Both the position numbers and the translations under genes were made by a program. Below are positions 131 through 31,425 of a DNA stretch of 43,579 nucleotides, one piece after another; position 1 is the stretch's first letter; each line of letters begins with the position of its first letter. The notes below the pieces were generated by a model, which saw only the letters and a list, made by a program, of their open reading frames with translations, searched no databases and was not told where the DNA came from. Origin of the DNA: an uncultured bacterium (GTDB taxonomy: Bacteria; Verrucomicrobiota; Kiritimatiellia; UBA8416; CAMZLY01); the NCBI GenBank assembly GCA_947311825.1, contig CAMZLY010000150.1:1-43579 (forward strand), in the 5' to 3' direction.

Positions 131-679
131 CTACCTCATAGCCAACTTCTCCCACCACCCGGCAGCTGCCTGAGTAGCACTGGCAGCACCCCTTAAATCA
201 TTGGCATCACCATTATAAACCGCCGCCGCAGCCTCACATACAATTGCCGCCTGACGGCATGCCGCAGTGCCTTTTCCACGCACTATAACAGATTTTGCCT
301 GAGTAGCAGCTTTATCCTCTATATCACCAAGTTTAGCGTATAGTTTAACCATTTTATTATAATTGTTGGCAGCTTTATCAAAATTACTAACTGCACTGGC
401 AAATGACCTAGAGGCATTGATATATATTTTTCCTGCACGACGAAATGCCGAACGCCGAGCGGTATCGGTTTCAAATAGTTCTTTAGTTATCGCTGTTGCT
501 TCCGCCTGCTGACTTTCAGCAGATTCCAATAGAGCACTACCTGCCCATTCGCGATTCATTGCCGCGCGATTCAGATTTTCTATTGTAGCACGTGCTTTAT
601 CGTTACCATCCGCACTTACCGCAGATGCCAACATACACATCACTCCAAATAAACTAAATATCATTTTCATGCTTCTCAT
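131..679 (-). CDS. small secreted Ala-rich helical protein of unknown function
   Basis: 182-aa ORF with signal-peptide-like N-terminus (MKMIFSLFGVMCMLASAVSADG); no recognised domain. Confidence 0.7.
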   Translation of the reverse strand: MRSMKMIFSLFGVMCMLASAVSADGNDKARATIENLNRAAMNREWAGSALLESAESQQAEATAITKELFETDTARRSAFRRAGKIYINASRSFASAVSNFDKAANNYNKMVKLYAKLGDIEDKAATQAKSVIVRGKGTAACRQAAIVCEAAAAVYNGDANDLRGAASATQAAAGWWEKLAMR

Positions 680-785
680 TTTTTACTATCCCAATTCCGT
701 CTTACTTTTCTTATTATTGGTACAATTATCGCACTACACAGAAGCAAGGTCAACCCCACAAGGTACTTATTTTAATTTTTTCTTT

Positions 786-949
786 GAGATGCTTGCAAAA
801 CTACTGTGCGAAGCAATTTTTAGCATTTCAGGTGAGCAGATTCTGTCTTTTTAGCAATTGAGCATACCCGTAGAGTCTGTAAAATTGCGAAAAAGCGGAA
901 TATGCCACATAAAATCAAAAAGTCCCGCAGATAGTTTTGCAAATGCCTC
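786..949. repeat. MITE-like interspersed repeat, copy 1 (164 bp)
   Basis: Ends gagatgcttgcaaaactact...agttttgcaaatgcctc form terminal inverted repeats; body is nearly identical to 31227-31425. Confidence 0.8.
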
Positions 950-1065
950 TTTTAATGAAAATTAATTTTTTTATTGTAAAACATCAATATTCAATGCGAT
1001 ACTTGATTTTCAGTCTGAATAGAATTCAGCATATTATAATAAAATAAATATCAGGAAATCAAAAA

Positions 1066-31226: not shown

Positions 31227-31425
31227 GAGGTGCTTGCAAAACCACTTGTGCGTGGCAATTTCTTGCATTTTAGGCGAGCAGATTCTGCCTTTTGAGCAAT
31301 TGAGCATACCCGTAGGGTCTGTAAAGTTGCGAAAAAGCGGAATATGCCGCATAAAATCAAAAAGTGCCCGCAGATCATACCGAAAGCTTCGCAATCGGGC
31401 AGATAAATAGTTTTGCAAGTACCTC
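31227..31425. repeat. MITE-like interspersed repeat, copy 2 (199 bp)
   Basis: GAGGTGCTTGCAAAAC ... GTTTTGCAAGTACCTC terminal inverted repeat; body matches 786-949 with a ~33-bp extra segment. Confidence 0.85.

Follow-up and report, generated by a model that had tools for sequence, protein, structure and literature searches.

Among the closest described counterparts of the element reported here are type II MITEs such as Chunjie of Geobacter uraniireducens and QMITE2 of Coxiella burnetii. These are 150 to 240 bp long, have terminal inverted repeats (TIRs) and direct repeats, and are present in tens to more than 100 copies together with partial derivatives (PMC10969869). Correia elements of Neisseria and ERIC sequences of Enterobacteriaceae are short intergenic repeats also classed as MITEs, with about 100 copies or more (PMC10969869). 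For ISPse1, a member of the IS1182 family captured on a trap plasmid, inverted repeats of 16 bp are listed along with a duplication of 4 bp (PMC3281130). IS1272, of the same family, reportedly takes the place of palindromic target sequences and leaves no target site duplications (TSDs) (PMC5678879).

The window analyzed here, the whole 43,579-nucleotide stretch of DNA from an uncultured bacterium of the Kiritimatiellia, contains two copies of a MITE family that is new and of a well-known kind. Copy A (Table 1) is very probably a type II MITE copy moved by an IS1182-like transposase that recognizes its ends. The family resembles Chunjie and QMITE2 in size, TIRs, direct repeats, copy number, and partial derivatives but differs from them in sequence and driver. 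It is like Correia and ERIC elements in being a short intergenic repeat present at about 100 or more copies; functions have been proposed for those elements, whereas none is attributed to the host MITE. The ends of Correia and ERIC elements also differ from those of the host MITE. Inverted ends of the same kind as those of the MITE (GAGCYTCTTGCAAAA) are found in the IS1182 element ISUnCu17 and at related transposase loci, and the MITE has a 4-bp TSD, as does ISPse1. IS1182 elements contain a transposase gene, whereas the MITE has none and has only the ends in common with them. IS1272 lacks TSDs, but half of the MITE copies have one. No report of such MITEs from the host's class was found in a literature search.

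Copies in the window

The preliminary description had reported two copies that share sequence and inverted ends and lie upstream of genes (a ceramidase-like gene for copy A and accD for copy B), and these observations hold at the positions in Table 1. It had also noted short A- or T-run duplications in the flanks. The duplications are real, but they are 4-bp TSDs rather than vague runs; the two flanks of copy B match at three of four positions.

Table 1. Positions of the MITE copies and their parts in the window, and of MITE remnants elsewhere
Feature	Position	Strand	Evidence
MITE copy A, long form, 199 bp	31227-31425	+	BLAST, copy alignment
Copy A left TIR GAGGTGCTTGCAAAACCA, one mismatch to GAGGYRCTTGCAAAACTA	31227-31244	+	TIR-pattern search
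Copy A right TIR, GAGGTACTTGCAAAACTA on the minus strand	31408-31425	-	TIR-pattern search
Copy A left TSD, AAAA	31223-31226		Flank comparison
Copy A right TSD, AAAA	31426-31429		Flank comparison
33-bp extra piece of copy A, CATACCGAAAGCTTCGCAATCGGGCAGATAAAT	31376-31408	+	Copy alignment
MITE copy B, 164 bp	786-949	+	Copy alignment
Copy B left TIR	786-803	+	TIR-pattern search
Copy B right TIR	932-949	-	TIR-pattern search
Copy B left flank CTTT, probable decayed TSD	782-785		Flank comparison
Copy B right flank TTTT, probable decayed TSD	950-953		Flank comparison
Remnant locus L054	C41:60157
Remnant locus L241	C72:3049
Remnant locus L233	C48:7917
Remnant locus L039	C16:1695
Remnant locus L246	C81:59347
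Remnant locus L060	G001 C114

The first 149 bp of copy A are 91 to 97% identical to about 38 other copies. Copy A exceeds the typical 166 bp by an insert of 33 bp, which lies close to the right end and can itself form a small hairpin. This piece sets a minority of long-form copies apart from the 166-bp majority and is also present in the long-form copies on contigs C8, C41, C97 (two copies), C111, C121, and C3, of which that on C8 is the most diverged copy of the family (78% identity to the consensus). It also occurs outside any MITE in a congener, G001 (loci L274 and L275). A small hairpin repeat, CATACCGAAAGCTTCGCAATCGGGCAGAT, is similarly located outside MITEs in G001 (L274, L275, and L276) and inside the long-form copies of the host, in the window at positions 31376 to 31408.

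The congener keeps the gene order at accD, and window positions 131 to 678 and 958 to 1200 align to its accD region with 72 and 76% identity, respectively. The 164-bp copy B is absent from the orthologous region upstream of accD in G001, a comparison of one locus in one congener, and the insertion polymorphism between related genomes that is expected of MITEs is accordingly seen at this locus only. Nothing in G001 matches the ceramidase-like gene next to copy A. The congener carries another element, 132 bp long, that has like ends and the 4-bp duplication ACTA (L099:1387-1518, contig C84).

Genome-wide distribution

The draft genome of the host comprises 2,497,075 bases in 214 contigs and is 88% complete. 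TIRs matching GAGGYRCTTGCAAAACTA with at most two mismatches were found at 244 sites genome-wide (129 and 115 on the two strands), compared with 0 for the reversed-pattern control, and complete, near-exact copies were identified at 28 places with a strict two-ended pattern. The preliminary description had stated that the mobile-element interpretation would fail if these were the only two copies in the genome and their termini were inconsistent, or if the ends differed from copy to copy; this is not what was found. Within the window, the GAGGYRCTTGCAAAACTA end had four matches with at most three mismatches, compared with 0.10 expected from shuffling. A BLAST search of the draft genome with the 199-bp copy gave 197 candidates, of which 40 copies were scored. 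The family amounts to about 120 element equivalents spread over many contigs; the copy statistics given here rest on about 40 full copies, with places beyond the first 100 TIRs listed covered in part.

The 40 aligned full copies are 163 to 199 bp long, usually 163 to 168 bp and typically 166 bp. They form two groups, one of near-identical young copies with TTGGAGC at the loop and one of older, more diverged copies. No reading frame of the consensus exceeds 55 codons, and the interior has no room for a transposase gene. In being short (less than about 600 bp), multicopy, dispersed, and devoid of a transposase gene, with conserved 18-bp TIRs, the family has the attributes by which MITEs are recognized. 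The exact loop pattern had no match in the genome-contig database, and the TIR pattern had four matches in viral contigs, all single and unpaired and mostly chance-like.

One forward and one reverse frame are open throughout the 166-bp consensus, and insertion could therefore extend a protein. A 552-codon open reading frame (ORF) at C25:10156 appears to begin within a MITE copy, and a long-form MITE end lies in frame after a phosphoesterase-like C terminus (L031/L066; C3:5547), the latter judged by eye only. An isolated exact MITE end (L042; C23:3644-3661) has as neighbors a hairpin-rich stretch and a gene judged by eye to look Rpn-like (PD-(D/E)XK).

Exact 4-bp TSDs were present in 16 of the 34 full copies for which both flanks were available, while shuffling of right flanks gave a mean of 0.93 and a maximum of 6 in 5,000 trials. 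A 5-bp duplication was found in none of the 34 copies, and other registers gave almost none.

Matching ends around IS1182-like transposases

A relaxed form of the end, the 16-bp signature GAGSYNCTTGCAAAAC, was searched for in 346 genomes of the host's class and matched in 91 of them, several with tens of sites; the reversed control gave very few. G033, a Lentisphaerales metagenome-assembled genome, contains on contig JAUXFM010000003.1 a 1,516-bp element with GAGCCTCTTGCAAAAC at both ends. The transposase encoded by this element is 363 residues long and has the domains DUF772 and DDE_Tnp_1. Homologous transposases bounded by ends of the same type, 1.2 to 1.7 kb apart, were found at about 20 further loci. 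Two plasmid elements annotated as IS1182 have such ends: ISUnCu17 from Aeromonas caviae (GAGCCTCTTGCAAAAG and GAGCTTCTTGCAAAAC), with ATGA as its TSD, and one from Comamonas plasmid pBHB, with TGGT. Among IS-sized end pairs, 7 of 23 had an exact 4-bp duplication, compared with 0.41 expected. Both the matching ends and the 4-bp TSD of the captured family member are thus found with the MITE, as mobilization by this family would require. The MITE has no sequence similarity to the IS elements beyond the ends. The G033 transposase scored 75.8 bits against the NCBIfam IS1182 model, below the curated cutoff of 270, and is 43 to 49% identical to the annotated IS1182 plasmid homologues; the term “IS1182-like” is used because of this low score, and the assignment rests mainly on those homologues.

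The earlier suggestion of a mobilized nonautonomous element is supported: the termini are consistent, the 4-bp TSD is specific to one register, copies are numerous, the congener has an empty site, and relatives have transposases with matching ends. In the proposed mechanism, the DDE transposase of an IS1182-like element would recognize the 16- to 18-bp inverted ends (GAGGYRCTTGCAAAACTA), move the gene-less MITE, and insert it at another target by joining staggered by 4 bp; a 4-bp duplication would result. Mobilization in trans probably took place in the host lineage through such a transposase. The search for a transposase with matching ends that the preliminary description had proposed succeeded in relatives, where it is IS1182-like, but found none in the host genome. 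No PF01609 domain was found in the 88% complete host draft, and no IS1182-like transposase homologous to that of G033 was found in the drafts of the host or G001, both of which are incomplete. An autonomous element with matching ends was likewise not found in the MITE's own, incomplete draft genome. Isolated TIRs were considered as ends of autonomous elements and rejected; they were truncated copies, copies at contig ends, or 32- to 47-bp remnants, and no transposase was seen. Not every MITE has an autonomous partner in the same genome, and drivers are often lost. Since no such transposase was found in the 88% complete draft, the driver has presumably been lost or is unassembled or external, e.g., on a missing replicon.

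Alternative explanations

Over its whole length, the consensus is predicted to form a single, imperfect, and very stable hairpin (−84.8 kcal/mol; z = −10). This stability and the location of both window copies upstream of genes speak for the dispersed structured RNA or cis-regulatory module also envisaged in the preliminary description, with the palindrome kept for RNA structure or for regulation of the downstream gene. The substitution pattern argues against this, as pairs were kept in 23 of 72 single substitution events, compared with 23.6 expected by chance, and only three types of double-compensatory event were seen. An Rfam scan of the window matched only a tRNA and nothing in the MITE, and copy A had no excess of terminator- or promoter-like features. 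Where genes were called to the left and right of a copy, their orientation showed no preference (16 tandem, 6 convergent, and 5 divergent), although this is weak evidence because gene calls were a rough ORF selection. An RNA or regulator would also leave the TSDs and the IS elements with the same ends unexplained, and we consider it very unlikely. The MITE is ∼74% identical to its own reverse complement, and its arms therefore look like an old inverted duplication, from which the long hairpin would most simply have resulted. Palindromy, high copy number, and the mostly intergenic location of the copies (by the same rough ORF selection) are also properties of REP/BIME-type repeats moved by a Y1 (RAYT/IS200-like) transposase. 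REP elements are expected to lack TSDs, and the exact 4-bp TSDs contradict such an origin; together with the precise 16- to 18-bp inverted termini and the DDE-type IS elements with the same ends, they are features of DDE transposition, making a REP/BIME origin extremely improbable.

Two further alternatives accept transposition by a DDE enzyme and concern its identity or its mode. A different DDE transposase with similar ends, e.g., of IS5 type, might be the driver, as no IS1182-like gene was found in the host genome and IS5 models also match the G033 transposase, again below the cutoff. Nevertheless, IS1182-like genes in numerous unrelated genomes lie between these same ends, part of them with a 4-bp TSD, and another driver is therefore improbable. 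The second alternative arises from the distribution of TSDs, which are present in most older copies but mostly missing from the near-identical young subfamily. The TSD-less copies could be products of inverted-repeat-replacing transposition, as proposed for IS1272, instead of ordinary insertion, and IS1272 is a precedent for movement without TSDs (PMC5678879). The simplest explanation is the mis-joining of flanks of near-identical copies in the draft assembly, which is favored because the copies that lack TSDs resemble one another most closely and about 37 sampled contig ends fall 50 to 166 bases inside the MITE. TSDs are also lost when copies recombine with one another (PMC11708052), which may be another cause of their absence. 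Inverted-repeat replacement thus appears highly doubtful, and insertion by an IS1182-like transposase with a 4-bp duplication is the preferred reading for the family.

Remnants of 32 to 34 bp, in which one MITE end is joined to a few terminal bases of the other, were observed with exact 4-bp duplications (TTTA, TTTT, TGAT, ATTA, and GCTT in the host and AGTA in G001). They probably arose when the interior of the hairpin was deleted between short repeats within it, such as GCAC, and the long hairpin may also explain why they recur.

Related elements and significance

In a poorly studied bacterial class, a MITE family can now be named together with its likely driver. Near-identical copies recur about once per 20 kb, and the MITE is probably one cause of the fragmentation of the draft assembly, since many contigs end inside it; such repeats are a warning when gene neighborhoods are read in similar drafts.

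The signature GAGSYNCTTGCAAAAC picks out many further MITE families in the host's class. Short elements of about 100 to 300 bp in other genomes of the class have the same ends and interiors unlike that of the host MITE. An exact 4-bp TSD was found in 16 of 34 short elements, nearly all from other genomes, compared with 0.72 expected. The transposase was present in 10 of 35 genomes with at least four ends and in 21 of the remaining 311 (Fisher p = 3e-4, with relatedness ignored). There is a small chance that, across the class, one subgroup of IS1182-like transposases has repeatedly founded MITE families that retain only the 16-bp ends and have unrelated, genome-specific interiors, with the palindrome aiding spread and the TSD-less young subfamily formed in an IS1272-like manner. 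Examples with the same ends and different interiors include L092, L097, L098, L101, L107, L127, L134, and L147 to L161, and some of the short elements across the class repeat one interior many times within a single genome.
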